This document shows positions 10,917-36,142 of a DNA stretch of 64,000 nt, piece after piece (positions within the stretch are counted from its first letter, which is position 1; the number at the start of each line of letters is the position of its first letter). The stretch lies in NCBI RefSeq assembly GCF_900100365.1, contig NZ_FNKU01000001.1, forward strand, positions 3,919,501-3,983,500, written 5' to 3'. The DNA comes from Pseudomonas cannabina (GTDB lineage: Bacteria; Pseudomonadota; Gammaproteobacteria; Pseudomonadales; Pseudomonadaceae). The position numbers and the translations under genes were made by a program. Below the pieces are notes generated by a model, which was given only the letters and a program-made list of their open reading frames with translations, ran no database searches and was not told the DNA's origin.

Positions 10917-10993
10917 GGGCCCATAGCTCAGTTGGTTAGAGCAGAGGACTCATAATCCTTTGGTCCACGGTTCGAGTCCGTGTGGGCCCACCA
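10917..10993 (+). tRNA. tRNA with CAU anticodon (Met, or Ile2 if lysidine-modified)
   Basis: A 77-nt cloverleaf with acceptor stem GGGCCCA / TGGGCCC and encoded ACCA end, D-loop AGCTCAGTTGGTTAGAGC, anticodon loop CTCATAA (CAT) and T-arm GGTTCGAGTCC. CAU tRNAs can be elongator Met or the TilS-modified isoleucine tRNA, and sequence inspection does not separate the two safely. This gene is the integration site of the downstream island. The tRNA itself remains complete because the island carries the same 3' half. Confidence 0.93.
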
Positions 10994-10994
10994 C
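10948..10994 (+). repeat. attL: 47-bp direct repeat, 3' half of tRNA
   Basis: Identical over 47 bp to 30865-30911. It begins in the anticodon loop (ACTCATAATCC) and runs one base past the encoded CCA. Anticodon-loop-to-3'-end duplication is the usual product of tyrosine-recombinase integration into a tRNA gene. Confidence 0.95.
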
Positions 10995-10998
10995 ATCC

Positions 10999-11024
10999 AA
11001 AGCCGCGCATTTCGCGGCTTTTTG
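10999..11024 (+). terminator. Terminator-like hairpin after the tRNA
   Basis: Stem AAAGCCGCG (10999-11007) / CGCGGCTTT (11013-11021) followed by TTG, five bases after the tRNA repeat. A related but imperfect hairpin (30917-30939) follows the attR copy, suggesting that one of the two was the original chromosomal tRNA terminator. Confidence 0.7.
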
Positions 11025-11121
11025 CAGTCTGCGAGAAAAACAGCTGGACCAGTCCTATGGTCCACAGGTACAAAATCAGTACAGTGCCAAGACAACGGTA
11101 CGTTTTTGGAGCAGAAATAAA

Positions 11122-12189
11122 ATGGCCACCATCGTCAAAACAGACGCTGGCACTTGGAAAGCCCTGGTGCGGAAAACCGGCTGGCCCGCCAACGCGAAGA
11201 CCTTTCGCACCAAGCGTGATGCCGAAGACTGGGCCCGTCGCACAGAAGATGAAATGGTCAGAGGCGTGTACATCCAGAGAAGTGGGTCCGAACGCATGAC
11301 TCTGGCCATGGCATTAAAACGCTACCTGGCAGAGATCAGCCCAACGAAGAAACCGACGACTCAGCGCGCGGAGGCAACCAAGGCCAAACAGCTGATCAGC
11401 CATTTGGGGAAGTACTCAATGGCAGCGCTTTCTGCAGAAATCATCGCCAATTACCGAGATTCGCGCCTAGCCTCGATCACGCATCGCGGCAAGCCAACAA
11501 GCAACAACACTGTGCGCTTGGAACTTGCCCTTCTGAGCCACCTGTACACCGTGGCAATCCAGGAGTGGGGTTTGGGGTTAAGTTTCAACCCAGTGCTGAA
11601 CATCCGCAAGCCAAGCCCCGGCCAAGGTAGAGATCGACGCCTTTCTGCCGAAGAGGAACGCCGGTTACTGGCCGCAGTGAATGCGCACAGCAATCCGATG
11701 CTTGGCTGGATTGTTCGAATCGCCTTGGAGACCGGCATGCGCTCGTCGGAGATAACATCGTTGCGCCGACATCAAGTCGATCTGAAAAAGCGCGTGGTGC
11801 GCCTCTCTGACACTAAGAACGATAGCGCCCGCACTGTGCCGCTGACCCGGCTAGCCACCGACACGTTCCAATTGGCGATGAGCAACCCTATTCGCCCAAT
11901 CGATTGCGATCTAGTGTTTTTTGGGGAGCCTGGCAAAGACGATAAGCGCAGCGCGTATGCCTTTACCAAGACATGGGGCAAGCTGAAGACCAAGCTAGGA
12001 ATGCCTGACCTACGCTTTCATGACCTTCGTCATGAAGCAGTCAGCCGGTTGGTAGAGGGTGGCCTTTCTGACCAGGAGGTTTCTGCCATCAGCGGGCATA
12101 AGTCGATGCAGATGCTCAAGCGCTACACGCATCTACGAGCAGAGGATCTGGTAGGCAAATTGGATAAGCTGGAGACAAGAAACTCCTAA
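11122..12189 (+). CDS. int: Tyrosine site-specific recombinase (island integrase)
   Basis: Phage-type integrase that presumably recombines attL and attR. The 355-residue protein (start ATG 11122, MATIVKTDAGTWKALV) has an N-terminal arm-type AP2-like segment, a SAM-like core-binding domain (~60-150), and a catalytic domain with the conserved R in ETGMRSSEI (~residue 215), HDLRHEA (H-x-x-R, ~300), the H of SGHKS (~323) and the tyrosine nucleophile in LKRYTHL (~332). It sits 128 bp from the tRNA 3' end and is transcribed away from it, as is typical of tRNA-integrated islands. A longer frame reaches into the tRNA, but those codons have no family resemblance. Confidence 0.93.
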   Translation: MATIVKTDAGTWKALVRKTGWPANAKTFRTKRDAEDWARRTEDEMVRGVYIQRSGSERMTLAMALKRYLAEISPTKKPTTQRAEATKAKQLISHLGKYSMAALSAEIIANYRDSRLASITHRGKPTSNNTVRLELALLSHLYTVAIQEWGLGLSFNPVLNIRKPSPGQGRDRRLSAEEERRLLAAVNAHSNPMLGWIVRIALETGMRSSEITSLRRHQVDLKKRVVRLSDTKNDSARTVPLTRLATDTFQLAMSNPIRPIDCDLVFFGEPGKDDKRSAYAFTKTWGKLKTKLGMPDLRFHDLRHEAVSRLVEGGLSDQEVSAISGHKSMQMLKRYTHLRAEDLVGKLDKLETRNS

Positions 12190-12422
12190 ATTGAGTAATT
12201 GCATCGGCTTGGCAACCCGTTCGCATTCGACGCGAGCAGTCATCTGTATTGCCATGACCGACAGAGAACGACCCAAAACCGCCTTCGGGGAGGGCAACTA
12301 ACGGTAAAAAGCAGATGGTAGAGATCCTCATGACTTCGTAATGTGCTCGCCATCCAAGTCGAATTGCCTATAATCTGCTTGGCGTTCTTGCACAAGCATT
12401 GAGTCCAGACAAGGAGTTGGGA
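12190..12422 (+). other. Gap between integrase and Shedu leader ORF
   Basis: No gene is visible in this gap. A TATAAT at 12369-12374 lies 49 bp before the leader-ORF start and is a plausible -10 box, although no good -35 is seen at the right spacing. An AAGGAG ribosome-binding site (12411-12416) closes the gap. Confidence 0.4.
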
Positions 12423-12518
12423 ATGGGCAGAATTTTATATAACATAAGTAGCGTTTATAATTTACCGCTTTATGGTCGTTATTTTGTGCTAGTCATAATT
12501 CAGGCTTTATACAAATGA
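12423..12518 (+). CDS. 31-residue leader ORF coupled to the Shedu gene
   Basis: A short ORF starts ATG 12423 six bases after a strong AAGGAG (12411-12416). It encodes a hydrophobic, tyrosine-rich peptide, MGRILYNISSVYNLPLYG followed by RYFVLVIIQALYK. Its TGA (12516-12518) overlaps the ATG of the next gene as ATGA. The downstream gene has no good ribosome-binding site of its own, so ribosomes most likely reach it by termination-reinitiation. The peptide could be a regulatory leader, a small membrane peptide or a non-functional coupler. No family is recognised. Confidence 0.55.
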   Translation: MGRILYNISSVYNLPLYGRYFVLVIIQALYK

Positions 12519-13753
12519 ACGAAGAAGAGAAAACAGCTTCTCCAGCGAAAAAAATAACAATGGCCTTTATGCAAGAGGTGATGAATAATTATCTGGGCCC
12601 GCTTTGGCAATACGTACAACAAAATCCGAATCTCATCAAAACAGCCCCTGGTTTCCTATTAAAACCTGAGGAAATTGTTGTATACATTGGCCAAACTCAC
12701 ATCGCTGTAGAGTACATAGGATCTGAGATTGCTGAGAAGCTGAATTCTGACGGGTTACTGAACCTGAGATATCATGATTACTCGGTGAAAAAGTGCAATC
12801 TTTTCGAAAAAATCATTGGTTTTGAATATGACTCGACCGCAAGTCGTGTATCTTCAATGCCCTTGCCACCATTCAGTGAGGACCTAGTCTTCCCGACAAA
12901 TAAAGGTTGGGAAAAACTCACAGAGTTGAAATGGAACTTTGCAGCTCAAAATAGCATTATGGGTTTTAACGTACCAAGCCCAGAACCTATGAAAGGGCAA
13001 TTTACCAGAATCGTAAACGGAATGTTTTTCGACGCTGACGACTCTGGATTGAGGACCAGACATATAAAGTGGCTAGATTTCTTCCCTATCCATTTTGATA
13101 GTAGCGATGAAAAATTTGATCGCATCGGCTTCAATCTAGAGGAAATTAGAAAACTTGTAGAGTATGATGCTCACTACTCTTACCCTATGCCGGATGACTA
13201 CAAATATATTCAGCTACCGAAAATAAATAGATTCATCGAAGTATGGGGGAGTTCCAAAAGCACGGAGCCTCATATAACTTCTCACTTATCTAAAGAAGAA
13301 AATAAATTTATACTAACAATGAAATTTGGAGCAAAGGATGTGTTTTCTGAATTGATTTGCGAATGGCAGAGCGAAAAAAGGAATGCTATAAGACCAGATT
13401 TTTTTGTTCTGCAGCCCAACGGTTACGCAGACATTGTCGAATTCAAACTTCCCGAAATTGACAAAGGCTTCATTGTCGGCGGTCAAAACAGAGAAACATT
13501 TTCTTCGTGGCTAAATTCATATATTTCTCAGACCAGGGTGTACGCTACCTACTTTGATGATCCGAACAATCGAAGATGGTTTGAAGAAAAGTATGGATTT
13601 AAAGTTCACAAGCCTCGCAGATGGCTCGTCGTAGGACGCAGAAGCGATTTTGAGTCTGATGTATGGCGGGAAATCATGTCAGATCATCAGGGCTTAGAGA
13701 TAATAACTTTTGACGATTTGATAGATGGAGTTGTAGTGCAGTTCTATAAATGA
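12515..13753 (+). CDS. sduA: Shedu-type anti-phage nuclease (DUF4263)
   Basis: The 412-residue protein has a C-terminal PD-(D/E)xK nuclease-like domain of the Shedu (DUF4263) family. It contains RPDFFVLQPNGYADIVEFKLP (~residues 292-312, active-site D and E-x-K), then SYISQTRVYATYF and PRRWLVVGRRSDFES, a pattern typical of SduA. The N-terminal ~240 residues are variable, as expected for the sensor or regulatory part. Shedu is a known single-gene phage-defence system that cleaves DNA; activity here is inferred. The gene is AT-rich relative to the chromosome and is translationally coupled to a 31-codon leader. It is followed by a gene split by a MITE. Confidence 0.82.
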   Translation: MNEEEKTASPAKKITMAFMQEVMNNYLGPLWQYVQQNPNLIKTAPGFLLKPEEIVVYIGQTHIAVEYIGSEIAEKLNSDGLLNLRYHDYSVKKCNLFEKIIGFEYDSTASRVSSMPLPPFSEDLVFPTNKGWEKLTELKWNFAAQNSIMGFNVPSPEPMKGQFTRIVNGMFFDADDSGLRTRHIKWLDFFPIHFDSSDEKFDRIGFNLEEIRKLVEYDAHYSYPMPDDYKYIQLPKINRFIEVWGSSKSTEPHITSHLSKEENKFILTMKFGAKDVFSELICEWQSEKRNAIRPDFFVLQPNGYADIVEFKLPEIDKGFIVGGQNRETFSSWLNSYISQTRVYATYFDDPNNRRWFEEKYGFKVHKPRRWLVVGRRSDFESDVWREIMSDHQGLEIITFDDLIDGVVVQFYK

Positions 13754-13865: not shown

Positions 13866-15426
13866 ATGCTTGCAATGAAAATAAAGCTGACGCATTGGGT
13901 TTTGGTATTTTCTTCCAAGTTCCCTTGGCTTGTGCCGAGACTTTTGCGATTTCTCGGACAGAATTATGGCAAGCAAGATAGCGAGGTGATGCGTGAGATT
14001 TATAACGAAGAGAATCGGATTAAAACTGCCAGCATTTTTGAAGGCCGTGTTTCTTGGAAAGGTATAAGCTTTGTTGCGGAAATTGGAAGCGAGGATTTAG
14101 GGAGGCGCTGATTTATTCGATTTTTCGTCCCTGCAACGCTCTGGAGGCCTTGATTTATCTGGGGGCAACAGCTGGGTTTTAGAATAAATCAGCGTCTCCT
14201 TAGGAAAAGTCCACAAGTGGATGAGTGGCCAACCACGCGCAGGAGGAAATTACAGTTCGACACACGAAGAGGGTATAAAGAGCAAGAATTTGATTGGTGC
14301 CAGTTACAACAACTTAGGCTTCGTGTCTTTCGATCGCCCAACGATATTCTCAGTGGGGAGCATAAGTATTGCACCTCAACTTCCTAAAAGCTGCTACATA
14401 AGTCTTCTGAGGTTGAAAAACGGGGCTTGCTATATCTCTCTTTATGTGAAGCTTGATGACTCTGTCAAGTCGCTAGTTTCTGACGTCGACGTTCGCCACA
14501 TTAGTCGATACAAAGTATTTCAATCGTTCAACCCGTTCTCCCCAAGATTTGCAATAACTGAACATCACGACAGAAGGTCTGTAATTGAAAAATTCTTATA
14601 CAGAAAGGCAAATGAAGTAGTAGGTGAGGCTAAGCAAGCGGTCGAAGCGATGCTAGAAGCTTGGGGTGTAAAAAGGAAAGTTGATGAGTTTTCGTTGGTT
14701 GCCGATTTTTTCAGAGAGGGTACAGGCTCTTATTTTGATGAGCTTTCACTATCGGAAAGCGACGAGGCCAGCACTTCTATTGTAGTAATTGAACGTCACA
14801 GAGGCCGTTTTTTAATCAGCCCATTGAGCGAAGACACATCAGAGGAGTACATAGAAAACTACATTCCAAGCCAATTTGGAGTAGATGCATTTTTTTTGAA
14901 GAGCCAAGTGAGCTTAGATACTGAAAGCTATCGCCGCTATGATTTTAAGTCAATTGGGATTACTGATAATTACACCTATACAGCAATCCTGGCGGAAATA
15001 TACTCACGCTTCCAGCGATGCACGAGCAAAGTAAGCCCTGTCTTTTTAAGCCACAATAAAAAAGAAGAGCGCGATCTAAAAAAATTGCTTGATGCAGGAG
15101 TTGAACTGAACGTAATTGAGGAAAGATTGACTGCTGTTGAAGAGGGGTTGCACTGGTGTGAAGAAAGATATCGCAAGTTTAATCGCGATAGAATACGTGC
15201 AATTCGGTCCCACGTGTCTTCTTTTCGGAAGGATGTAGAAAGGCGTCGGGACTTGAATAATGGGAAGCTGCAAGTAAAAAACTTAATTTGGATGCGGCGC
15301 TACTCGATAATGGTGTTTCTATTTGTGCTGGTTCAGATTACCTTATCCCTGCTCAATGTTGATTGGACGGATGCTGGCAGAAGTAAAAATCCGATTTATA
15401 TCAATCTTTTCCATAATACTAAATGA
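13866..15426 (+). pseudogene. Unknown membrane-anchored protein gene, split by a MITE
   Basis: Two fragments, 13866-14100 and 14204-15426, lie in different frames on either side of MITE copy 1. Deleting the 99-bp MITE plus one copy of the TTAG duplication (103 bp) joins them in one open frame (...GSEDLG-KVHKWMSG...) of about 485 residues. The predicted intact protein has an N-terminal hydrophobic patch (WVLVFSSKFPWLVPRLL), a central unrecognised region, a charged coiled-coil-like stretch (about 375-440) and a C-terminal membrane helix (YSIMVFLFVLVQITLSLL). Neighbouring Shedu suggests a defence or accessory role, but no family was recognised. The downstream part could be translated from ATG 14221. 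Confidence 0.8.
14101..14199 (+). mobile_element. MITE copy 1 (inside an unknown gene)
   Basis: A 99-bp element with ends GGAGGCGCTGATTTATTC and GAATAAATCAGCGTCTCC (18-bp terminal inverted repeats, one mismatch), flanked by a TTAG duplication (14097-14100 and 14200-14203). It has no coding capacity. It interrupts the gene spanning 13866-15426. Confidence 0.93.
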
Positions 15427-15520
15427 ATTTAATTCAGAGTGCCGATAAGACAGTAACACATAAAAATCTCTGTAAGTACTGGGACACGATGGCCCCAGCA
15501 ACCGCGATTTTAGCTACTAG

Positions 15521-15619
15521 GGAGGCGCTGATTTATTCGATTTTTCGTCCCTGCAACGCTCTGGAGGCCTTGATTTATCTGGGGGCAACAGCTGGGTTTT
15601 AGAATAAATCAGCGTCTCC
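15521..15619 (+). mobile_element. MITE copy 2
   Basis: Same 99-bp element as at 14101, same orientation, flanked by CTAG on both sides (15517-15520 and 15620-15623). It lies in the non-coding interval between the split gene and the convergent 480-codon regulator. No reading frame is restored by its removal. The rest of 15427-15803 has no recognisable gene. Confidence 0.92.
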
Positions 15620-15803
15620 CTAGCTACTGGTGAGACGCTGTTTTTGGTCGATCTTCGCCAGTCGTCAATACGCTGTGCGTTGATCAGATCGGATGCAAAT
15701 TTTCGCTCAACACGAATGCAATTTACTGGTCGGTGGCCGTGCAAATGAGTGGTCAATGCAATTACGCACGTGGCCCGACACCATCGTCACTAAGCAAAGC
15801 ATC

Positions 15804-15848
15804 AGCCGCTTTTGCCCCGGCTGAAAATCCGCCGGGACAAAAGCGGCT
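15804..15848 (-). terminator. Long hairpin at the 3' end of the zinc/HTH protein gene
   Basis: 18-bp arms 15804-15821 and 15831-15848 (AGCCGCTTTTG...GGC with one mismatch) enclose a 9-nt loop. The right arm overlaps the stop codon of the minus-strand gene. On that strand the stem ends in CAAAAGCGGCT without a long T-run, so transcription termination or mRNA stabilisation are both possible. Confidence 0.55.
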
Positions 15849-17289
15849 AGCACTTTGATTTCGCATGCTCAGAGATCCCCATCAGACGTACCAGTCCGTC
15901 AACTGTACCTTTGCTAAGACCCACTTCCTTAGCGATTACCGTGATCGATAGCCCTTTCATGGCGGCATCCCTTATCGCCTTTCTAATTGGTTCTGGAACC
16001 TGCGCCTCGCCGGTTAGCGGGTTGATGTAGCTGCCTGCATGGTGTGTATTCATCAATAACTCTAGGCTTTTCTTGGCTTTTGATATCGCCTGACGCGATA
16101 TTCCCAATCGCCTCGCCATCTCTGATTGGCTGATGCCCTCTTCGTGCATGAGCCAAACTTTTTCGCGTAGCCCAAGTGATGAGGGCTTACCTGTCGTCAC
16201 AACGTGCAAGCCTGAGTGCACCTGGTCATAGGCGAGCTTTCTTATTTCCTGGATATCAGGGGAGCTGGGAGGCAGAAAATTGAACGCAAACTCAGATCTT
16301 CCCGACCTGCCGAGTGCAGATAGATGATTATGAAACGCAACCTTGTAGCGTAAGTCGGCATGGTATTTAGCCGATCCGGGCTTGTGTACGGCGCAGTACC
16401 GGTAGCTTAGGTTCCCCGCCACGATTTTCTCGATACGAAACCGCTCGAATACGACGCGTAGCTTTGCAGCCTCTGCTTTCGATATCAAAGTACTGGATGG
16501 AGAAAGCTTGAGGCTGCTTTCCAGCATCCAAGCGTCTGCTAGTCTGGCGTCCTGTTCTTCAGCAGAGAGCTGACACTGACCTGAACGGACAATTTCGCCC
16601 ACCTCGTAACGCTGCTGAGCTACAAGCTCCTGCAGTCTGTTGGACCGAATGCTTACACGCCAACAAAGCTCACAGTAACCGCCATCCTGTGGACGGGTCC
16701 GGTCATCTATAGCGGCATCAAAGTCTCTCAATGCCTTTGTACGCAGGGGTCTGAAGTGGCGCATCAATCGAAACAAGTCACGTATAGATTCCAAAGCCCC
16801 GCAAAGCGATTCCGCACCCTCGAACGGCGCCCCGTTCGGGCTAAGCAAACTACGAATGGCGAACTCAATATTTGAGTCCCAGCGATCCAAGTTCTGGAGC
16901 TGCCAGTCGATCTCCGGCATATTTTTTGGTCTATCGGATATAACATCGCGAGCCAGAATATCAGCCATCTGAGCGCCTCCACCTGCCTCAGCGCTCGCAA
17001 CGTAAGGAGCTGCATAAAATGGAGGTGAGGTATGGGCCATTTCCGACAGCCGAGCACCAGTCAGCAAACTCTTGGCCCACTCGCCCTCGTAGCCAGCTAG
17101 GCATTGATCAAACGGCGCATCCAAATTCGCCCTCACCAAAGGCCAGATGGGATAGCGCCTGGAGGTTAGGCTTGAGGATGCGTTAAGCCGGCCTAACACC
17201 GCTCTGTAGCCAGCAGCAAACTGGACTGAACAACGAGGATCGTGATCGTAGATGTTGAGCAAATTCGTCAGATAACCAAGGCGCGCCAT
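15847..17289 (-). CDS. Unrecognised DNA-binding protein with Cys/His zinc-like motif and two helix-turn-helix units
   Basis: The 480-residue protein has no membrane segment. Residues C206-x2-C209 (GGYCELCWR) and C299-x2-H302 (YRYCAVHKPG) look like the four ligands of a split zinc knuckle, followed by YHADLRYK. The C-terminal third has a resolvase-like helix-turn-helix at ~385-408 (SQSEMARRLGISRQAISKAK) and a second at ~450-472 (TVIAKEVGLSKGTVDGLV). It is divergent from the replication-module genes across a 90-bp gap that contains a small palindrome, so it may be the island's own regulator. The precise function is unknown. Confidence 0.65.
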   Translation of the reverse strand: MARLGYLTNLLNIYDHDPRCSVQFAAGYRAVLGRLNASSSLTSRRYPIWPLVRANLDAPFDQCLAGYEGEWAKSLLTGARLSEMAHTSPPFYAAPYVASAEAGGGAQMADILARDVISDRPKNMPEIDWQLQNLDRWDSNIEFAIRSLLSPNGAPFEGAESLCGALESIRDLFRLMRHFRPLRTKALRDFDAAIDDRTRPQDGGYCELCWRVSIRSNRLQELVAQQRYEVGEIVRSGQCQLSAEEQDARLADAWMLESSLKLSPSSTLISKAEAAKLRVVFERFRIEKIVAGNLSYRYCAVHKPGSAKYHADLRYKVAFHNHLSALGRSGRSEFAFNFLPPSSPDIQEIRKLAYDQVHSGLHVVTTGKPSSLGLREKVWLMHEEGISQSEMARRLGISRQAISKAKKSLELLMNTHHAGSYINPLTGEAQVPEPIRKAIRDAAMKGLSITVIAKEVGLSKGTVDGLVRLMGISEHAKSKC

Positions 17290-17378: not shown

Positions 17379-17597
17379 ATGACAACCGAAGAGCTAATTC
17401 TGACCAGCAACGGGGGCTCTCCCCTACTCTCACTATCGCAAGTCGCAGAGATCCTTCATCGCAGCCCTGAGGGTTTGCGCATCACATTATCGGGGGACAA
17501 CGAAATCGCCCGAAACTTGAAACCCTGCAGGATCAAAATTGGTCGGCGCGTCTATTTCCGCGTAGCTGGCATAGCTCGCTTTATCGACGAAGCGTAA
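17379..17597 (+). CDS. Small excisionase-like / MerR-type DNA-binding protein
   Basis: A 72-residue protein with the pattern LLSLSQVAEILHRSPEGLR...IKIGRRVYFRVAGIARFID. This is the winged helix-turn-helix layout found in excisionases, AlpA-like proteins and small plasmid regulators: a helix-turn-helix, then a basic wing G-R-R-V-Y-F and a final helix. It lies 9 bp before the initiator gene and probably shares its transcript. It could be the recombination directionality factor of the island or a repressor of the replication gene; sequence alone does not decide. Confidence 0.6.
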   Translation: MTTEELILTSNGGSPLLSLSQVAEILHRSPEGLRITLSGDNEIARNLKPCRIKIGRRVYFRVAGIARFIDEA

Positions 17598-17606: not shown

Positions 17607-18497
17607 GTGTCCGCAGTGACCAAACTATCGCGACTAGTGGAACGGGCTTCCAGGCTCCCACCTACTCCGACGGTGGTATCACTAGAACCGGTCCGGTCTG
17701 AAAAGGTGCTGACAAGCTGGCCAGACGAAGTGAGAGGCGTACCCAATGTCACTCTCCGGTCTGCGCTTTTCGGGTCCAGTCGCTCCGCTAGCAACGCCTT
17801 CCTACAGCGCGCTGAAATTTACACTCAGAGGCCTACGCAAATGAGATATTCGGGACCACGGTTGGACCAGGGCGATTTAGATGTCTGGATCACGTTGTTG
17901 CATATCGCTCGCCAAAAGCAGATGGGGACATCGTTTAAAACCAGCGCATACGAGCTTCTGAAACTACAAGGGAAGACGGATGCCGGGAGTAATAGGAAAA
18001 CTCTCTACAAGCGTTTGTTCCGGCTGGCAGCAGGCACGCTCGAGATAAGTGCAAAGTGTCATTCCTATACGGGAGGTCTGATTGACTCGATCCATAGAAA
18101 CGATCAGGAGCAGAAGCTGGTTATCACGCTGAACCTTGAGCTCTCTAACCTATTCGGGCCAAATGACTTCACCCACATCGATTGGTCCGTCCGCAGGACT
18201 TTGAACTCTAAACCGCTAGCACAGTGGCTACATGGGTATTTCTCCACCCATGCTGAGCCCTACCCTGTATCAATTGGCACACTGATGATGATGGCAAGCA
18301 GCATCAATAGCTCTGCGTCCAGCCGTGAACAGAATCTTCGAAGAGCATTGGACGCGCTTAAGGACGCGAGCAATCTGCATGGACAGACGTTTAGCTACGA
18401 AATCAGCAGTGGCAACGTGTATGTCACAAAAACCCCAACCAGTAGCCAAGCCAGGCATATTGCGAGGAAAGCCAGCGGCTATGAGAGCAAACAATAG
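17607..18497 (+). CDS. trfA: TrfA-family plasmid replication initiator
   Basis: A 296-residue protein (GTG start 17607). After a ~75-residue variable N-terminus comes MRYSGPRLDQGDLDVWITLLHIARQ, then LLKLQGKTDAGSNRKTLYKRLFRL and SKPLAQWLHGYFSTHAEPYP, the winged-helix pattern of TrfA/RepA initiators of IncP-type plasmids. Such proteins bind iterons and recruit host DnaA and helicase. Four iterons follow directly after its stop codon, which supports the assignment strongly. An ATG at 17840 could give a shorter form, as TrfA genes often do. Its presence suggests that the excised island can replicate. Confidence 0.8.
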   Translation: MSAVTKLSRLVERASRLPPTPTVVSLEPVRSEKVLTSWPDEVRGVPNVTLRSALFGSSRSASNAFLQRAEIYTQRPTQMRYSGPRLDQGDLDVWITLLHIARQKQMGTSFKTSAYELLKLQGKTDAGSNRKTLYKRLFRLAAGTLEISAKCHSYTGGLIDSIHRNDQEQKLVITLNLELSNLFGPNDFTHIDWSVRRTLNSKPLAQWLHGYFSTHAEPYPVSIGTLMMMASSINSSASSREQNLRRALDALKDASNLHGQTFSYEISSGNVYVTKTPTSSQARHIARKASGYESKQ

Positions 18498-21532: not shown

Positions 21533-21536
21533 TTAG

Positions 21537-22817: not shown

Positions 22818-25388
22818 ATGATGCGAGCAGTCATTGGTCGAAAATATGAGGATGTCCTAGACCCGCAAGTATATTGGATTGCAGGTACTGATAATGAGCA
22901 TGACGGCTTATCAGATGACCAAATCGAAAGAATGGCCCAGCGGCTCTCGCTGTCACAAATAGGTGTGTTTCTCGCTCAACGTATCTGGGCAAAGCGAACC
23001 TGGCTAGTCGTCCCAATGCTGATGATGGCTGGGCTGCTAATTACTTACATGCTGGTGAATGCAGCTGGCACTACAACAAGCGACAAGCTTATTCCCTTGG
23101 TGCTGACAGGCACCGTCTGGCTCAGCTTTTTTCTGTGTTGTTCCGCAACAATATTCGGTCCACTGATTGCCCAGTTATTCCTGCCAAAAATGCCAGTGCG
23201 TCAGGATGAAATCGACTCAGTGAAAAGCGTAATCAGTCGCTGCGTCATTCGTGATTTAGAGCCAGAAACTCCGCTCGATCTGAAAGACCGTGCCCGACTA
23301 TTGGTAACTGATTCCGACGGCCAATCTGTAGCGGGGCAAGTACTAGCTACTGACCTCGAGTTTTCAGCCGTTCGCGCAGAGTGGATGATCACTAAGGCTG
23401 TGCTCGTGCTGATGGGCTTAGTCATGCTATCTCCAGTCCTCGCGACCTCATCGCCCATGCTTGCGGTCTTGGATTATTTCTCCCTTTTGGTCTGGCAAAA
23501 AATGGCGTTCTGGATTCCTCGCGATCACGAGCAATCCAGATCTGGGCAGCAGGAAAAAGATTCGTCCGTACTCTTCTTCGCACTGAAGGTCGTGATCATC
23601 CCACTGCTAATAATTTTTGGGCTCTCAGCGTCCTATCGAGAGCACCTGGATGCTTTTGTTCGGCTGGACGCACAAGTGATTAACTGGGTCTACGTTATCG
23701 GGATGTGGGCTTTCGCGATCTATCTCACCTTCACGGCCAAATCTCCACTTAAGGTTCGCGCAATGCTGCTCGATCAAGCAGTGCGTGAAAGTGGTACGGA
23801 GCTATTAGTCGACAAGGTCGGACGGGCGTACTTCCAGCATCTTGAGGAGGCACGTACTGAGCAGATCCGAAACGCCAAAAAGGATGGCTCTCCGTTTATC
23901 CACCTTGGAACCAGTACTGGTCTCCTAGCGCAACGACGTGACCCACTATCGCCTACTGAGGCCGGCATCCCGTTCGGCCTGTCAGTAACGGACTTGGCTA
24001 CCCACGTCGGCGTATTAGGAGCTAGCGGCACAGGTAAAACCTCCGGCGTCATTCGCCCCCTTACCAAACAATGGATTGATGGCGATCTAGGGGGGCTTCT
24101 AGTACTCGATGGCAAAGGAGCACTGCCCCTCGAATTTGACGGAACAGAAGGATACACACTCATCAGCCCGGATCACGGCCCGTTCAATCCAATTTCTGGT
24201 ATGACGCCAGATGCATTGGCTGATGTGCTCCCCGACGTATGCGACGACGGAAAAGGGGATACATTCTGGCGTGACTCTGCACGCCTCATGCTGCGCATGG
24301 CGGCGATCTTGGTAGAAGCCCATCACAACCTGCCATACACGCTGACGCAGATCCAACAGTTCTGCTTAGCCAGCCACCAAGAGCGCGCGGACTGGCTCGA
24401 TCCTATTTCTAACGAAATTGACGGTAATGGCCGCCTGCTTGCCGCAGCTCATTACTGGCTGCTGGAGTACCCCGATTTTCCGGAGAAGACTGCCGGCTGT
24501 ATCAGCAACATGCTTCGAACCTGGCTGGGCAACATCCTGCTTCAAGAGAAGCTTGGTCCGTGGGTCAACACAACTGACACTGAGTTCAGAGTTGAAAATG
24601 TGATGACCGGTCAGAAAATTGGGCTTCTGCTACCAGAATCGGAATATGGCATTGGCGGGGTGGCCATCTCAGCTATATGCATGCGCAGAGTCTACGATGC
24701 GGTGAAAAAACGCGGCGACACCTGGCAGGGCTTGGAAGGCCATAGGCCTGTTCTGCTCGCCGCTGACGAGGTTCAGAACCTGTTGACCAAAGCGGATCTG
24801 GAAACTGTTCCGGTCGCACGCAGCCTAGGGCTGTATCTGATGTTTGCGACACAAAACGTCGACGGTTTGTATAAGCGCTTGGAGCGCGACGGCGCGGTAC
24901 AGATGCTCGGCAACCTTGCCAGCATCATAGCCTTAGCCCCCCGTACAGATGACTCAAACAGCTACGTTTCCAAGCGGGTCGGTAATGTATGGAAGGCTTC
25001 GACACAGAGCTTTCAGGGGCTACCTGACGCCGCCAGCGATTTTGGTCTGTACGCTAACTCTGGTACTGGTCAAGCAATGCAGTCGACCACGCTGCATCGC
25101 CAGAATCGCTTCGGCGCGCCACGGCTATCTTATGCGATAGGACTCTGGCATCGTCAGTGGACTCCCAAAGCTATGAACTGGCTGGATGGAATGGTGGTGC
25201 CTGATGATCCAAATCAGGCACCACCGCGACCAGCACTCCAGCTAGAGCTATCCCCACTCATCTCGCCCGATGAGATCGACACCCTCTTGGCCATACCAGG
25301 TACCGCTATCGCAGTCATCAACCGCGGACGAATCCAACGCCGTGATGTGATCCGCCTGTATCCGAAACAAACGGGGGATGCAGCATGA
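22818..25388 (+). CDS. TraG/VirD4-type coupling protein, possibly 5'-truncated
   Basis: An ATPase that would dock the relaxosome to a secretion channel. It has five predicted membrane segments in the first ~340 residues. An ATPase core follows with Walker A GASGTGKTSG (~residue 401) and Walker B GGLLVLDGKGA (~427), then AADEVQNLL and a glutamine-rich FATQNVDGL segment. The frame is open back into the IS end (TTG 22731), and residues before ATG 22818 (FFDDPVSKVRHWLLHREQK) look coding. The native start therefore seems to have been lost or moved by the MITE/IS event. It overlaps the next gene by ATGA. Confidence 0.8.
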   Translation: MMRAVIGRKYEDVLDPQVYWIAGTDNEHDGLSDDQIERMAQRLSLSQIGVFLAQRIWAKRTWLVVPMLMMAGLLITYMLVNAAGTTTSDKLIPLVLTGTVWLSFFLCCSATIFGPLIAQLFLPKMPVRQDEIDSVKSVISRCVIRDLEPETPLDLKDRARLLVTDSDGQSVAGQVLATDLEFSAVRAEWMITKAVLVLMGLVMLSPVLATSSPMLAVLDYFSLLVWQKMAFWIPRDHEQSRSGQQEKDSSVLFFALKVVIIPLLIIFGLSASYREHLDAFVRLDAQVINWVYVIGMWAFAIYLTFTAKSPLKVRAMLLDQAVRESGTELLVDKVGRAYFQHLEEARTEQIRNAKKDGSPFIHLGTSTGLLAQRRDPLSPTEAGIPFGLSVTDLATHVGVLGASGTGKTSGVIRPLTKQWIDGDLGGLLVLDGKGALPLEFDGTEGYTLISPDHGPFNPISGMTPDALADVLPDVCDDGKGDTFWRDSARLMLRMAAILVEAHHNLPYTLTQIQQFCLASHQERADWLDPISNEIDGNGRLLAAAHYWLLEYPDFPEKTAGCISNMLRTWLGNILLQEKLGPWVNTTDTEFRVENVMTGQKIGLLLPESEYGIGGVAISAICMRRVYDAVKKRGDTWQGLEGHRPVLLAADEVQNLLTKADLETVPVARSLGLYLMFATQNVDGLYKRLERDGAVQMLGNLASIIALAPRTDDSNSYVSKRVGNVWKASTQSFQGLPDAASDFGLYANSGTGQAMQSTTLHRQNRFGAPRLSYAIGLWHRQWTPKAMNWLDGMVVPDDPNQAPPRPALQLELSPLISPDEIDTLLAIPGTAIAVINRGRIQRRDVIRLYPKQTGDAA

Positions 25389-26479
25389 AAACTACCGAAA
25401 TCTATATGCCGTTGATGCGTGAAGCGGAGGGCCATTGGTATTGGCCAGGGTCAACTTCCCCGGCGACCTTGCTAGCCTTGGCTCTGCTATTGGCCGCATT
25501 CGTTTATGGTTACCGGTACCCTGCGATGAAAGCGGACGAAGCGATTCAACGCATTGAAGCCGTGAACCAGTTGATCGACCAATCGGCGCAACACACACAG
25601 GCAGCACTCTCACGCCTCCAGGGCTTGATGGCAGACCAACCTGAATGGCTGCGACAAGTGGCGACCGCACAAACGACTGAACTTCAAGCCCAGCTGTCCT
25701 TGGTCAAGCCCTTGAGTAAGGAGCAGATACTTCAGAAAGCGGTAGTGCAGCAAGAACAATACGATCAGGCTCAACAAGTGATCGCAGCTTCGCCATTTAA
25801 AGGGTTAACGAAACTGCAGATACCGCTGAGCGCTGAAGGGAAAAGATATCTCGATGCTCTTGAGGTTAAACGCCCCTCACGATTTGAGTACCAAAGGCTT
25901 TCAGACGGATTGCTTGATGCGCTGCCTGTACTGCAGGAAGGATTCCAGCTCCAGGCCCAGACAGAGAGCATGGTTCATCGCCTGGATGTGCAACTGAACG
26001 GCGACAAGGCAGGCGTGCCCGGGCCAGCAGCAGAGCAAGCTTCCGATTATGACGGTGGAGAACAGCTGTACGAGCGGCAGCAGCCCAAGCCTAAAGCTCC
26101 CATTGACGAGCTCAGCAGCGCAATCCGTAAAGCAGAGCGAAACGCAGAAAAGCAGAAACAACAGGCAAAGTTGGAAGCTCAGAATCAGGCACGTCAGGCA
26201 GAGAGAGACGCCCGACAAGCAGAGCTGCAGGCGGAACGTGAGCAACAGAAAGTACAGCGTCTATCTATCCAACGCCAACGGGACACTGATCGCCAAGCCA
26301 GCGTAGCTGCCGAGGCTACACGCCGAGCAGAGCAAGATTCAGAGCGCCGACTAGCTGCGGCAAAACGCCAATCGGAAGCTGCAGCCGAGGCGAAACAAAG
26401 AGAATGTACGGCCAGCATCATGACAAGAGCCAGATGTGCGGCCCAAGGTTACAACCCGCTAACGGGGGCTAGAAATTGA
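25385..26479 (+). CDS. Unknown membrane-anchored coiled-coil protein of the mobilization module
   Basis: A 364-residue protein with one N-terminal membrane helix (LLALALLLAAFVYGYRY, residues ~28-44), a helical periplasmic or cytoplasmic middle region, and a long Q/E/R/A-rich coiled coil at ~250-340. The C-terminal end CTASIMTRARCAAQGYNPL has paired cysteines. Its start overlaps the coupling-protein stop (ATGA), so it is probably a transfer accessory factor. No known family was recognised. Confidence 0.6.
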   Translation: MKTTEIYMPLMREAEGHWYWPGSTSPATLLALALLLAAFVYGYRYPAMKADEAIQRIEAVNQLIDQSAQHTQAALSRLQGLMADQPEWLRQVATAQTTELQAQLSLVKPLSKEQILQKAVVQQEQYDQAQQVIAASPFKGLTKLQIPLSAEGKRYLDALEVKRPSRFEYQRLSDGLLDALPVLQEGFQLQAQTESMVHRLDVQLNGDKAGVPGPAAEQASDYDGGEQLYERQQPKPKAPIDELSSAIRKAERNAEKQKQQAKLEAQNQARQAERDARQAELQAEREQQKVQRLSIQRQRDTDRQASVAAEATRRAEQDSERRLAAAKRQSEAAAEAKQRECTASIMTRARCAAQGYNPLTGARN

Positions 26480-26596: not shown

Positions 26597-26798
26597 CGCA
26601 TACCGGCACAGGTCATCGACAAAGACATCCCGACTGCCGGGCTGATGGCCCAGGTGATGATCGCGAAATACGCCGATCATTTACCGCTGTACCGCCAGGA
26701 GCAAATCTTCGGTCGGGCCGGTCTTGCGATACCTCGCTCAACGCTCGCCAGTTGGGTCGGCGTTTGCGGTGTGCAATTGCAGCCGCTGGTCGACGCAG
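26597..26798 (+). pseudogene. IS66-family transposase fragment
   Basis: The encoded stretch TRIPAQVIDKDIPTAGLMAQ...KYADHLPLYRQEQIFGRAG...RSTLASWVGV is the recognisable middle part of IS66-type TnpC. Both the N-terminus and the catalytic DDE part are missing. It happens to be in frame with the downstream SIR2 gene without stops, giving a spurious 757-codon fusion. Remnants like this mark earlier cargo exchange. Confidence 0.85.
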
Positions 26799-26998
26799 CG
26801 GGCAAATGGAATCGGGGAGTTGTTGCCGCATCGGTGGCAACCCGCTTAGTTGCGCAAGAAGGGATGCCCGGAAGCTTATTCGAATTCGATAGGTACGATC
26901 ACTACACAAGTGATGGCCTTTGGCTAGAATGCCCCCACCCAGAACAGGGCTGGCAACTTCGTGACATACGTTGCTACCCCGATTACAAGGAAGACTCT

Positions 26999-28771
26999 AT
27001 GCCCATGATCGCCAATGACCCCACTACCCAGCTTGCATTCTCTGTATATGAGAACAAGGGAGTGTACGCGTTACTCCTAGGCTCAGGAGTATCCCGCGCC
27101 GCCGGTATTCCAACCGGCTGGGAGATCACCATGGAGCTAGTCAAACGTGCCGGTATTGCCTCAGGTGTCGGCGAGCAAGAGGATTGGTATGCTTGGTATC
27201 TAGGTCAGACAGGAGAGCAGCCTAACTATTCCACTCTGCTGGAGACCTTAGCGGGCACGCAGAGCGAACGCAGAGCCATTGTGCAGAGCTTCCTTGAGCC
27301 TACAGCCCAAGAGCTGGAGGACGGTTTAAAAGTACCCACCAGGGCTCATCGAGCTATCGCAGAAATGGTGCGTGCTGGACACGTGCGGGTCATTGTGACC
27401 ACCAACTTCGACAGGCTGATGGAAAACGCACTGCGTGATGCCGGCATCGAGCCCACTATCGTGAGTTCGGTCGACACCCTGGCAGGAGCAGAACCGCTCG
27501 CCCATTCCCAGTGCTTCATCCTCAAAATCCATGGCGATTACAAGGACGCCCGGATTCTAAATACGGATGTTGAACTGGGCGACTACCCCACTGAATTCAA
27601 CACTCTGCTCGACCGCATAATCGATGAGTTCGGGTTGATCGTCGCCGGCTGGTCAGGAGAATGGGATCACGCCTTGAGGGCCGCGTTTCTACGCGCCCCT
27701 TCCCGACGCTACCCAACCTACTGGCTCGCCCGAGGAGGTGTGTCTGAGCGCGGCCAAGAGTTGGTCGCACGACGCCGCGCTTCGGTGGTTAGTGGGACTG
27801 ATGCGGATACGTTCTTCGATGCCCTTAACCTGAAGCTTGAGACCATTCAAAAATCCCGCCAGCCCAATCCGGCGAGCGTCGAGCTGATGATCGCCATGGC
27901 AAAACGCTTCATGGACCGGCCTGAACACAGAATCCAGCTCGACGACCTAGTCACGGCTCAAACTCGACAGAGTATTGCTGATTTTGTACCTCTATTTGCA
28001 GGACAGGGTGATGTGAGAACCCAGGCGTTCAGTGATTGGGTTCCAGAGTACGAGGCTATTGCAGAACCAATCGCACGCCTTGCTTCAGTGCTAGGTCGAT
28101 GGGGCACAGGTGATGAGCTGAGTCTCGTACTGGATGCCGTTAAAGGACTATATGCAGAAGCTCATAGGGAGCAGGCTGGCTATACCCATTGGCTCGCCCT
28201 GAAGAACTACCCAGCTGCGTTGGTCGTTCTTGGCTATTCACTGGGCCTGACCCGTGCAAATCGCCTTGACGTTCTATATACCCTGCTCAATTCAACCGTC
28301 ATTAACCGCCGTGAGCAACCAGGATTGATTGGTTATGAGTTGTCACCGTTCTATTTAGAGGCCGGCAACGGGCTGCTGGCGCACTGGAAAACCTTAGAGG
28401 ATCAGAGCAACGCCCGTACACCGCTATCCAATCGCCTGGCCAGCCTCATTACCTGCAAATGGGCACCCTCGTTCGCCGGAGTGCAGGATCCCGAGCTGCT
28501 GTACGAGCGTTTCGAGTTTCTGAACCTGCTGTTCTTCGCTCAAACGAACGGCGTCAATGAAGAAGAGCTCAATAATCGAATCCAGCAGAGTCAATTTCGA
28601 AACATCGCGATGGGTCGTCTGTCGTGGCACTCGGAGACAATCTCGCGCTTTGCTCAGGAATACTCTACGCCGGAGTTCAACGCGCCCTTGCTTGCTGCCG
28701 GCTTTGCCTATGGCAGTGAGAGCTACCTCCAGCGTTTCTTAGAAGGATTAGGCCGAATGAGCAGGTGGTAA
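26999..28771 (+). CDS. SIR2-domain protein, probable phage-defence NADase
   Basis: A 590-residue protein (ATG 26999 preceded by AAGGAAG). The N-terminal SIR2-like domain has the nucleotide-binding LLLGSGVSRAAGIPTGWEI (~residue 24), the conserved VTTNFDRLM (~134, N and D) and the catalytic histidine in ILKIHGDY (~176), then IVAGWSGEWD. The remaining ~330 residues are helical and unrecognised, and probably form the sensor part. Related SIR2 proteins deplete NAD+ during phage infection; that function here is an inference. An upstream in-frame IS66 remnant means longer start choices are artefacts. Confidence 0.78.
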   Translation: MPMIANDPTTQLAFSVYENKGVYALLLGSGVSRAAGIPTGWEITMELVKRAGIASGVGEQEDWYAWYLGQTGEQPNYSTLLETLAGTQSERRAIVQSFLEPTAQELEDGLKVPTRAHRAIAEMVRAGHVRVIVTTNFDRLMENALRDAGIEPTIVSSVDTLAGAEPLAHSQCFILKIHGDYKDARILNTDVELGDYPTEFNTLLDRIIDEFGLIVAGWSGEWDHALRAAFLRAPSRRYPTYWLARGGVSERGQELVARRRASVVSGTDADTFFDALNLKLETIQKSRQPNPASVELMIAMAKRFMDRPEHRIQLDDLVTAQTRQSIADFVPLFAGQGDVRTQAFSDWVPEYEAIAEPIARLASVLGRWGTGDELSLVLDAVKGLYAEAHREQAGYTHWLALKNYPAALVVLGYSLGLTRANRLDVLYTLLNSTVINRREQPGLIGYELSPFYLEAGNGLLAHWKTLEDQSNARTPLSNRLASLITCKWAPSFAGVQDPELLYERFEFLNLLFFAQTNGVNEEELNNRIQQSQFRNIAMGRLSWHSETISRFAQEYSTPEFNAPLLAAGFAYGSESYLQRFLEGLGRMSRW

Positions 28772-29012: not shown

Positions 29013-29192
29013 GGTTGGGAGTTCTTCATCACGGCGAGATCTCGATTCATCTAAACGACTCCATAGATCAGAGCAGCTCAACGCTAGCCGTTTCTGATAG
29101 CCCGATCTCGCTGGTTCTGGTTGAACGCTGATCTGAGAAAGACTACGAAGCGTGCTGCGAGCCTTATCTAGCTTGGAGAGCAGATAACTTAG

Positions 29193-29291
29193 GGAGACGC
29201 TGATTTATTCTAAAACCCAGCTGTTGCCCCCAGATAAATCAAGGCCTCCAGAGCGTTGCAGGGACGAAAAATCGAATAAATCAGCGCCTCC
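29193..29291 (-). mobile_element. MITE copy 4 (inverted)
   Basis: Same 99-bp element as copies 1-3 but in opposite orientation, flanked by TTAG on both sides (29189-29192 and 29292-29295). It lies just downstream of the 231-codon gene. Confidence 0.93.
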
Positions 29292-29311
29292 TTAGGATCG
29301 CGGGTCTCCAC

Positions 29312-30007
29312 TCAGTTTCTCACAAACGCATACTGATACTCGTTCAGCTCATTAGAATTACGAGCGATTAATTTCAACTCAGAGCAGCTACCAATTGCCT
29401 CTGCGAAACTAGACCCAACGGCCATAGGCAGGTAAAAATAGTCACCATACATCTGCGGAGGAATACCCCATATCATCCCTCCAAGGTACTTCCCATACTC
29501 CTTGTCGGGAAAAATCCTAGCCAGTGAGCTAGGTAAACTGACATCAATTATTTGACCGCTTTCAACTGTCAGCCAAACGTGCAAATTAATCCCCTGCCTG
29601 CCTTGAGAAGAAATATCTGCAAGTGAAATTCCTCTCTTACACCAACGTTTCAAATCTTCCCAAGATGGATTGAATGCAACCGTGTCTCCTCTCCAAAGCT
29701 GTCCGATGGTGACGTAGACTTTTCTACCGAGAGAGGCCTCAATGTGGGGTGCGAGAAAATGGCTCCATTTAAGGCACTGAAAAGCTGATTTTGAGGCGTC
29801 GCTAACACCTGCGGTCAGTAAAGCCCGATCCAGAAAGTCATCGCTTTCGCTAATTGGGGAAGAGAGCCAATTTGGCTTTGCGACCTTAAAGCCCTGGGCA
29901 TTTGTGAATTTTACCGCGTGTAAAAACCACGCTCTGTAGTCTGAAAAATCCTCTGAGCGAGTGGGAAGAGGCGGCGGCGTATAAAACAAGCGTTCAAACA
30001 ACCACAT
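29312..30007 (-). CDS. Unrecognised protein with transglutaminase-like triad
   Basis: A 231-residue soluble protein. C78 starts a helix (FQCLKWSHFLAPHI), followed by the strand RKVYVTIGQLW, then H143 in NLHVWLTV and D155 in QIIDVSLP. The order C-helix-strand-H-strand-D and the H-x-W-x-x-x pattern resemble transglutaminase-like cysteine enzymes. This is a weak fold-level inference, not a family hit. A second recognisable block is KYLGGMIWGIPPQMYGDYFYLP. It lies next to the right att site and upstream of MITE copy 4. Confidence 0.55.
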   Translation of the reverse strand: MWLFERLFYTPPPLPTRSEDFSDYRAWFLHAVKFTNAQGFKVAKPNWLSSPISESDDFLDRALLTAGVSDASKSAFQCLKWSHFLAPHIEASLGRKVYVTIGQLWRGDTVAFNPSWEDLKRWCKRGISLADISSQGRQGINLHVWLTVESGQIIDVSLPSSLARIFPDKEYGKYLGGMIWGIPPQMYGDYFYLPMAVGSSFAEAIGSCSELKLIARNSNELNEYQYAFVRN

Positions 30008-30106
30008 TTCAACTCCGAATCAAATCTATAAGTCACAGCATAGACATAGCTTTATTCTCAGCCTGTAGCTCCAAGCTGTCGACGGCAGTGTGTTTTCTGA
30101 TATGAA

Positions 30107-30526
30107 TTAATACCTTCTCCAGGTCCAGTAGGCGATCCCGTACCCCCCCAAAAGCAGCACTGCGGAACCTCCCCATTGCATGTATGTGCTAGCCCACCAC
30201 TCCACGTCTAGACGCTCGATGGACAACCCGGGGAAGTACAAGCCTTTGACGCCCCAGTACTGCATGGCAGGCCAGAATCCGCTCCACAAGGTCGATAGCG
30301 CTAGAGGCAAAAGCGCCCTGCACCCTAAGAAACCGTCCGTGAGCTCATTCCATATCGCGTAACCTACCAAACTGAGACACAGGAGGATGCTGAACAGCAG
30401 TCTGCCTCCAGCGGAAATATCTACGCCTATCTGATCTGAAAATCCTTTAGCTATGGCATATCCGAGCAGCGCGATCCCGGCGGCAAATGCAATTCTCTCA
30501 GCGACACGACTTTGGTCAGACCTCAT
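30107..30526 (-). CDS. Unrecognised four-helix membrane protein
   Basis: A 139-residue protein (ATG 30526, GGAG seven bases upstream) with about four hydrophobic helices: IAFAAGIALLGYAIA, LLFSILLCLSLVGYAIW, LLPLALSTLWSGFWPAM and GGSAVLLLGGYGIAYW. No family is recognised. It is the last gene of the island before the right att repeat, 99 bp upstream of the transglutaminase-like gene and on the same strand, so the two may be co-expressed. Confidence 0.6.
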   Translation of the reverse strand: MRSDQSRVAERIAFAAGIALLGYAIAKGFSDQIGVDISAGGRLLFSILLCLSLVGYAIWNELTDGFLGCRALLPLALSTLWSGFWPAMQYWGVKGLYFPGLSIERLDVEWWASTYMQWGGSAVLLLGGYGIAYWTWRRY

Positions 30527-30864
30527 TGAACATCTCCGTTTCGTAAAATTGCTCACGTCATGTTAGCCAGTGGACACGCCCAGGACCAGCCAAAACACAC
30601 ATTCAAAATCATAGGCAATTTTGCGCAGGATGGGATTGAAAGAGGTTTGGAGGACATATGGCAGAATTGAAGTGACTGAATACATGTGAATGGAAACCTT
30701 ACGAGCGTGATTCTGGTTCAATATTTCGGTACACACCCGGTACAGTCATAAGCTCTCACTACTTTCTCAAAACTACGTCAAACCCGCTGTTTATAATGCT
30801 TTCAGCTTTGTGAGCCTACGTTAACCTATGAACAGTTTTGTAAGGCCCACAGCGTTTCTAGGCA

Positions 30865-30911
30865 ACTCATAATCCTTTGGTCCACGGTTCGAGTCCGTGT
30901 GGGCCCACCAC
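30865..30911 (+). repeat. attR: 47-bp direct repeat of the tRNA 3' half
   Basis: Exact copy of 10948-10994. Upstream bases differ from the tRNA, so this is only the duplicated 3' half, not a second gene. It marks the island's right end. Confidence 0.95.
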
Positions 30912-36139: not shown

Positions 36140-36142
36140 GTG

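Follow-up and report, generated by a model that had tools for sequence, protein, structure and literature searches.

An island of about 19.9 kb integrated at a tRNA-Met gene of Pseudomonas cannabina is very probably a replicative integrative and mobilizable element (IME). It lies in a window of 64,000 nucleotides (contig NZ_FNKU01000001.1 of assembly GCF_900100365.1, positions 3,919,501 to 3,983,500), to which all coordinates refer. Judged from its gene content, the island probably leaves the chromosome, replicates as a circle and moves via the machinery of a helper. In the proposed cycle, the integrase and a putative excisionase (xis) would recombine attL and attR, which would yield a circle of ~19.9 kb and restore the tRNA-Met gene. 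The initiator TrfA would bind its iterons and open an AT-rich block beside a DnaA box, so that the circle would be copied and not lost. The MOBQ relaxase would nick the origin of transfer (oriT), and the island's own (or the helper's) coupling protein would pass the strand to the type IV secretion system (T4SS) of a conjugative plasmid resident in the cell. After transfer, the circle would replicate in the recipient and/or integrate at tRNA-Met. Cargo, often of the defence type, would be exchanged at two places, one between int and a helix-turn-helix (HTH) gene and the other beyond the transfer genes.

The original prediction, made from the letters of the window, had described an island delimited by perfect 47-bp att repeats and an integrase, with a TrfA-like initiator and iterons, a relaxase and an oriT, and Shedu and SIR2 cargo. 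All of these parts were recovered by family searches and repeat comparison (Table 1), with the start of the SIR2 gene corrected to ~26999. The pairing of integrase and TrfA in other strains, set beforehand as a test, was found as well, with the origin conserved and an oriT wherever a relaxase was present. The xis-like gene, the DnaA-like box with the AT-rich block and the coupling protein had been missing from that description.

Table 1. Features of the island, with window coordinates and the evidence for each
Feature	Position	Strand	Evidence
tRNA-Met (CAT), integration target	10917..10993	+	ARAGORN
attL, 47-bp repeat	10948..10994	+	direct repeat comparison
Tyrosine integrase (int)	11122..12189	+	PF00589 E 1.6e-29
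SduA (Shedu) defence protein, cargo	12515..13753	+	SduA_C E 5.7e-8; PADLOC PDLC00383 E 1.9e-221
MITE-like repeat copy 1 (107 nt)	14098..14204		repeat comparison
401-aa cargo protein	14221..15426	+	no family match
MITE-like repeat copy 2	15518..15624		repeat comparison
480-aa HTH core protein (HTH480), divergent from xis-trfA	15847..17289	-	HTH families (Pfam); beside xis-trfA in relatives
72-aa HTH_17-like protein, putative excisionase (xis)	17379..17597	+	PF12728 E 5.6e-5, 23.8 bits
TrfA-family replication initiator	17607..18497	+	PF07042 E 6e-14, 52 bits vs cut-off 22
Four 21-22-bp iterons	18498..18584	+	Tandem Repeats Finder and pattern search
DnaA-box-like TTACCCACA	18582..18590	+	comparison with relatives; TTATCCACA in several relatives
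Conserved AT-rich block, putative DNA unwinding element	18648..18671	+	alignment of relatives
91-aa HTH_37 protein, antitoxin- or regulator-like	18677..18952	+	PF13744 E 7e-11
88-aa partner of 91-aa protein	18949..19215	+	no Pfam family; conserved in relatives
MOBQ-type relaxase (MobA/MobL)	19229..20704	-	PF03389 (MobA_MobL) E 4e-31; PDB 2ns6 E 3e-30
Two copies of palindromic TTTTCGCGCCCGCGAAAAT upstream of relaxase	20730..20789		repeat comparison
Predicted oriT core: inverted repeat and nic-like TAAGCGCGCCTT (20855-20866)	20831..20868	+	relatives and MOBQ plasmids compared
TraD-family (PF06412) mobilization protein	20961..21401	+	E 2.8e-10
MITE-like repeat copy 3	21431..21537		repeat comparison
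IS5-family insertion, ends approximate	21534..22749	+	transposase 21608-22600
Type IV coupling protein (T4CP)-like, 885-aa ORF	22731..25388	+	TraG-D_C (PF12696) E 7e-11, above cut-off
364-aa coupling-protein partner, no family assigned	25385..26479	+	conserved in relatives
IS66 transposase remnant, in frame with SIR2 gene	26627..26800	+	PF03050 on ORF residues 44-101
SIR2-domain defence candidate (PDC-S65)	26999..28771	+	PADLOC E 4.4e-213; start inferred
MITE-like repeat copy 4 (inverted)	29186..29297		precise insertion, TTAG duplication relative to P. congelans
231-aa cargo protein, no family assigned	29312..30007	-	94% in P. congelans
149-aa cargo protein, no family assigned	30107..30556	-	94% in P. 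congelans
attR, 47-bp repeat	30865..30911	+	direct repeat comparison

Integration module

The two att repeats were 100% identical over 47 bp at a start-to-start distance of 19,917 bp. attL is the 3' part of the tRNA-Met gene, and a search of the host genome at E <= 0.001 gave no copies besides attL and attR. The left flank had a GC content of 0.595, as against 0.43-0.57 across the segments of the island. Two att copies delimited the element in seven genomes (window 19.9 kb, P. congelans 24.8, G313 18.6, G014 21.9, G299 14.1, G046 28.8 and G317 23.1; compared genomes without a species name are given by our G numbers), that is, over a range of 14.1-28.8 kb. In G313, a second, tandem partial element stood beside the 18.6-kb element; the third att copy and the integrase fragments at its loci L055 and L118 were the remains of this second element at the same tRNA. 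The 40 bases 3' of attR outscored those 3' of attL against the bases that follow tRNA-Met in relatives at six of seven loci (nine were tried, two gave no match, and at least two, G003 and G006, bear insertion traces themselves), a comparison limited by the similar terminators that stand 3' of many att copies. In place of a clean empty site, this comparison lends weak support.

The integrase reading frame was open from 10960, within the tRNA gene, and its first ATG was at 11122. Since the first ~54 codons contained a stop or lay in another frame in a number of relatives, translation very likely begins at this ATG. The xis gene ended 9 bp ahead of trfA on the same strand, so the signal for excision would probably also yield the initiator. 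HTH480, for which 95 homologues scored at E <= 0.001, is a candidate regulator. The gap between HTH480 and xis (17290-17378) was conserved across five aligned elements and may hold an operator; a promoter scan of the HTH480-xis region gave no sigma-70-like site.

Replication module

The iterons were reported by Tandem Repeats Finder without a prior pattern (18498-18579). A pattern derived from them, and therefore post hoc, had four matches in the window and none in 100 shuffles. A period-22 array of 3.7-4.8 copies was located 3' of trfA in all seven TrfA loci at tRNA-Met (window, G313, G046, G056, G014, G299 and G317). The box TTACCCACA differs by one change from the DnaA-box consensus. The order of iterons, DnaA-like box and AT-rich block was constant in the seven aligned sequences (window, P. 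congelans, P. cedrina, P. tremae, P. mangrovi, G046 and G014), the box of P. cedrina being poor; in G317, TTATCCACA preceded the iterons, and in G299 no clear DnaA box was seen near them. The NCBIfam search yielded no family for TrfA, and its profile had no sequence match among solved structures. Its relatives at less than 60% identity were annotated initiators of small plasmids, for example of 10.4 and 6.5 kb. Taken together, trfA, the iterons, the DnaA-like box and the AT-rich block fit a TrfA iteron replicon, which may drive autonomous replication.

TrfA and the iterons could instead serve mainly to interfere with helper plasmids rather than to maintain the island. The host has other TrfA-family genes on its contig C7 and VirB4 on three contigs, and there is a precedent in SGI1, which is reported to destabilise its helper plasmid when excised (PMC8409611). 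However, the whole conserved layout of the origin, with iterons, DnaA-like box and AT-rich block, exceeds what titration would need, which makes this role improbable.

Transfer module

The PDB entry matched by the relaxase, 2ns6, bears the title 'Mobilization protein A' and comes from R1162; against the NCBIfam MobQ model the relaxase scored 92 bits, below that model's own cut-off of 200. The oriT core was located by comparing relatives and MOBQ plasmids. The interval between relaxase and traD contained GTTTCT...AGAAAC followed by the 17-mer AACTAAGCGCGCCTTCC, which was identical in six of six relaxase-bearing elements (window, G313, P. congelans, P. cedrina, P. tremae, which is G056, and P. 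mangrovi) and in two plasmids typed MOBQ, pJARB-RN-0061 and a 4.2-kb Paracoccus plasmid. These two plasmids are not an independent draw, because they were picked from 121 records similar to the oriT stretch. When 178 loci were scanned for the 17-mer, nine matched, namely the five relatives, the two plasmids, and a second copy each for P. congelans and P. tremae. In layout the region is similar to the RSF1010 oriT. The exact RSF1010-type nic core AAGTGCGCCCT was absent from the window. The stretch upstream of the relaxase is read as a putative oriT with a nic-like core, at which the nicking site is predicted. An 89-aa open reading frame (ORF) overlapping it (20682-20951) was judged spurious.

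The coupling protein contained the Walker A motif GASGTGKT and had no PDB sequence match. Neither a mating-pore family nor a complete T4SS was detected among the 19 larger island ORFs scanned with Pfam; the element thus fits a mobilizable one and not a self-transmissible integrative and conjugative element (ICE). VirB4-family genes were present on the host contigs C4 (46 kb), C5 (48 kb) and C8 (33 kb), which are candidate helpers.

Conservation of the element in Pseudomonas

TrfA homologues (E <= 1e-5) were present in 36 of 398 genomes of the genus, the host's own included. We took flanks from 22 of the other 35 genomes, chosen largely by high score; the 13 left out scored lower. Counting the window, trfA and a tRNA gene were neighbours separated by an integrase-type ORF in 15 of 23 cases: seven at tRNA-Met with the island-type integrase, seven at tRNA-Thr and one at tRNA-Arg (38% integrase identity). 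No such pairing was found in G075, G224, G229, G266, G302, G012, G106 and G332, some of them on short contigs; G229, G302 and G012 had a weak or partial integrase match further from trfA. The tRNA-Thr loci (G066, G358, G244, G340, G096, G354 and G082) represented a second type of TrfA element, with a different integrase that is P4-like by eye and a ~250-aa gene before trfA, which was interrupted in G354. The host itself had two further TrfA-family matches (G000:C7:7272-7934 and 32485-33023), the first scoring almost like one in G056:C237.

Four loci came from a scan of named genomes, in P. congelans DSM 14939, P. cedrina subsp. fulgida, P. tremae and P. mangrovi, and the gene order in all four was int-HTH480-xis-trfA-91/88-relaxase-traD-T4CP-364. 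The core of int, HTH480, xis, trfA and iterons at tRNA-Met was found in nine genomes besides the window: these four (P. tremae being G056) and G313, G046, G014, G299 and G317, with HTH480 of G299 found as two partial matches. The transfer block of relaxase, oriT, traD and coupling gene was present in five of the nine. The genes are under purifying selection, with dN/dS of 0.03-0.04 for int, 0.12-0.26 for trfA, 0.08-0.30 for the relaxase and 0.05-0.09 for the T4CP; the ratio was below 0.45 in every defined comparison, and four P. mangrovi values were undefined owing to saturated dS.

The combination could have arisen by chance capture, a plasmid having integrated beside an unrelated tRNA-Met integrase with no functional link. 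The island-type integrase occurred in 45 of 398 genomes (E <= 1e-60), and in just seven of these 45 was TrfA beside it at tRNA-Met. Against this stand the same gene order in nine other genomes under purifying selection and the other integrases, at tRNA-Thr and tRNA-Arg, that also adjoin TrfA, and we regard chance capture as highly improbable.

The replication slot after xis

The position after xis was compared in 30 further genomes with the integrase (eight more with it were left out). A xis homologue was present on 28 of these 30 stretches, mostly within a few kb of int, and in seven of seven TrfA loci at tRNA-Met; none was found on the stretches of G018 and G194. The same-strand gene next to xis varied between loci. 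All eight non-TrfA slot genes tested singly matched PHROGs families of replication initiation, DnaD-like loader or primase/helicase. When 26 slot genes were scanned jointly (the 30 non-TrfA ones minus G302, G012 and two of G008), 13 matched the replication family phrog_270 and 16 the unlabelled family phrog_22134, among the 25 of 49 families listed. Two AAA_25 slot examples matched Pfam strongly, and the xis-neighbour of G255 had five weak phage matches, one of them annotated replication protein O, and no plasmid match. Period-22 repeats also occurred 3' of the slot in G067, G279 and G054. Four slot genes (from G008, G364, G037 and G119, one locus in each) look DotA-like, with no Pfam match in the one tested. 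The same integrase family also stood before stretches that could be larger ICEs at tRNA-Met or tRNA-Phe (L110, L114, L115 and L107-L109), with a gene that likewise looks DotA-like.

This comparison supports an exchangeable replication cassette. We only tentatively extend it to a broad Pseudomonas family, a proposal slightly less probable than its opposite, in which one int-xis pair at tRNA-Met would be joined to an exchangeable cassette in line with xis: TrfA with iterons, a RepA-like helicase with a second gene and iterons, or phage O-like/DnaD-like initiators. A single switch would then couple excision to replication, initiator swaps would permit life beside different helper plasmids, and the transfer block and the defence cargo would be exchangeable likewise.

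In sister elements of the integrase family, xis is followed by phage O-like or DnaD-like replication genes. Together with the integrase of the tRNA-Thr TrfA loci, P4-like by eye, this could also suggest that the island is a phage satellite or prophage remnant. However, no capsid, terminase or packaging family was found among the island ORFs scanned with Pfam (PHROGs being applied to xis and trfA only), and the relaxase, the oriT and the coupling protein point to conjugation, so that a phage origin is hardly credible.

Divergence and recent spread

P. congelans carried a sibling element at the same tRNA-Met site. Compared with it, the left flank (4.1 kb) was 83% identical and the right flank 78-81%, the island blocks 92-97% and the int block 89%. 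The dS values were 0.023 for trfA, 0.039 for traD, 0.041 for SIR2, 0.045 for T4CP, 0.084 for the 364-aa gene, 0.16 for the relaxase, 0.19 for the 91-aa gene, 0.23 for xis, 0.27 for HTH480, 0.29 for the 88-aa gene and 0.56 for int, as against 0.88 for a left-flank gene. The low dS of trfA, T4CP and SIR2 relative to the flank means that portions of the element have moved between species, or recombined, in recent times; this probably holds for much of the element, int being older.

Insertions and damage in this copy

Four ~107-nt repeats resembling miniature inverted-repeat transposable elements (MITE-like) were found in the island; their ends resemble those of the IS5 element, and copies 1 and 2 flank the 401-aa gene. 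The IS5 was ~97-99.9% like copies on plasmids of the P. syringae group. P. congelans lacked the IS5 and MITE copies 3 and 4, and copies 1 and 2 sit in cargo absent there.

These insertions raise the possibility that this copy is a decaying remnant of a replicative IME family, with excision or transfer lost and the defence cargo alone kept. The IS5 replaced the start of the coupling gene, four MITE-like copies lie inside the element, and an IS66 remnant precedes SIR2. On the other hand, the att repeats were perfect, the frames of int, xis, trfA, relaxase and traD were open with low dN/dS, the insertions fall outside these five genes, and a coupling protein could come from the helper. The coupling-gene frame itself is still open via a TTG within the IS5 end, its first codons being IS-derived, and the helper's coupling protein might substitute for the island's own. 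Decay is therefore rather unlikely, and this copy appears largely intact, with an altered coupling-gene start.

Several observations nevertheless weigh against a replicating, mobilizable island. The match of xis to PF12728 was sub-threshold (23.8 bits vs a cut-off of 27), so that its identity as an excisionase is putative and leans on this match and on synteny. Pfam scans of the island ORFs revealed no partition gene. The IS5 at the junction of traD and the coupling gene took the place of the native coupling-gene start, which P. congelans retains. G046, G014, G317 and G299 yielded no homologue of the relaxase, traD or T4CP, so mobilization is not universal among the nine core relatives, and trfA of P. 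cedrina (L125:10001-10887) changes frame near residue 231, either as a broken gene or by an assembly error. The dS of int and xis, far above that of trfA, indicates a mosaic rather than transfer as a single block, and relative to G313 the dS of trfA (0.53) and T4CP (1.42) was not below that of the flank genes (0.49 and 0.15). No free copy was found among plasmids, where megablast gave 73 records with a best coverage of 8% and the matches in the 30 listed fall at the IS5/MITE parts. Nor was one found among viral contigs, in which the TrfA query hit two contigs at 40-42% identity, HTH480 and an att-plus-left-end pattern had no match, and contig L179 had no terminal repeat. Finally, no clean empty site was found; the left flank is present in relatives, and the right flank is not syntenic there.

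Cargo and defence genes

Variable DNA in the family occupied two places, the interval from int to HTH480 and the part beyond the 364-aa gene. In the window, the Shedu protein had no sequence match among solved structures, and the 757-aa 'SIR2' ORF opens with the IS66 remnant, so that the gene likely starts at ~26999. For the relatives, ten cargo proteins from seven of them were picked by eye, with no background control, from a set of 70 ORFs (150 aa or longer) that eight relatives supplied, and eight of the ten matched PADLOC families at E <= 1e-15: PD-Lambda-2 in P. congelans, type II methyltransferase in G313 and G299, type I methyltransferase and HEC-06 in G046, type IIG and LmuA in G014, and type IIG in G317. 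The two without a PADLOC match came from P. congelans and P. cedrina. All 70 cargo ORFs together matched 218 PADLOC models, of which the methyltransferase models were many and redundant. Defence-like genes thus occurred in the variable regions of six of the seven relatives sampled through these hand-picked proteins, which suggests that defence cargo is common in the family. The original reading, an element that alternates between chromosome and replicating circle and could be a transmissible defence vehicle, is supported overall; the alternation is probable, and 'transmissible' applies in the sense of mobilizable, not of self-transmissible.

The region to the right of attR (31966-37141) contained genes that by eye were LysE, AraC, M20 peptidase, NERD and HipA-like. 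It is mainly the far end of this region that P. congelans and G313 have in common, and the tRNA-Met site may therefore be a wider hotspot.

Comparison with known elements

The TrfA of RK2/RP4 is likewise a PF07042 initiator with adjoining iterons, from which the island TrfA is distant (family E 6e-14); RK2 iterons are 17 bp long and of another sequence. The relaxase domain resembles that of RSF1010/R1162-type and other MOBQ plasmids (2ns6 E 3e-30), and pJARB-RN-0061 and the Paracoccus plasmid share the identical 17-bp oriT core, the inverted repeat and a traD on the other side. These differ in being free plasmids, and the latter two were compared over short stretches. CloDF13 is a non-conjugative element with its own coupling protein.

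Replicative IMEs, TrfA-bearing ones included, and integrating mobilizable plasmids are already published. As far as the accessible text of the reports goes, yicC-specific and related elements carry TrfA, and SGI1-related and yicC-specific elements are likewise integrated with int, a recombination directionality factor, mobilization genes and an iteron or TrfA replicon (PMC8409611, PMC9035990). They differ in their sites (trmE, dusA or yicC), the MpsA relaxase and AcaCD control by IncC plasmids, and neither a MOBQ oriT nor an own coupling protein is described in that text (PMC8409611, PMC9035990). None of these sites is used by the island, which is at tRNA-Met; MpsA and TraN were not searched by name. 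pPDL2 of Sphingobium fuliginis is, in the part of its report available, mobilizable with an integrase, an attP that matches a tRNA 3' end, an oriT, an addiction module and an iteron oriV with a DnaA box, and its integration, mini-replicon replication and mobilization were demonstrated by experiment; it differs in having been found as a plasmid and in its RepA with RPA/Rep_3 domains, tRNA-Ser site and catabolic cargo (PMC3516476). Actinomycete ICEs (AICEs) such as pSAM2 share the att-tra-rep-xis-int layout and diverse initiators and differ in FtsK-type double-stranded DNA transfer (Tra), Actinomycetales hosts and RepSA rolling-circle, RepAM or Prim-Pol replication, according to the accessible sections (PMC3218068). 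IMEs with their own coupling protein are likewise non-conjugative. In the accessible text of a review, canonical VirD4 is paired with MobC relaxases, many streptococcal IMEs pair rolling-circle-type relaxases with a coupling protein, and the pairing with MOBQ, as in the window element, is not described (PMC5704250). The accessible part of PMC6856555 gives no nic sequence, and such elements go unmentioned in that of a 2025 review on the islands of plant-pathogenic gammaproteobacteria (PMC12388829). A literature search that covered few subscription papers or preprints gave no prior description of the Pseudomonas tRNA-Met TrfA family.

The family joins three things: an iteron origin that is conserved and follows an excisionase-like gene on the same strand, a MOBQ oriT accompanied by the element's own coupling protein, and cargo of the defence type. 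It offers a clean test case, in laboratory Pseudomonas, for why integrated elements keep a replicon, and would reveal a path that defence genes can take from one species to another.

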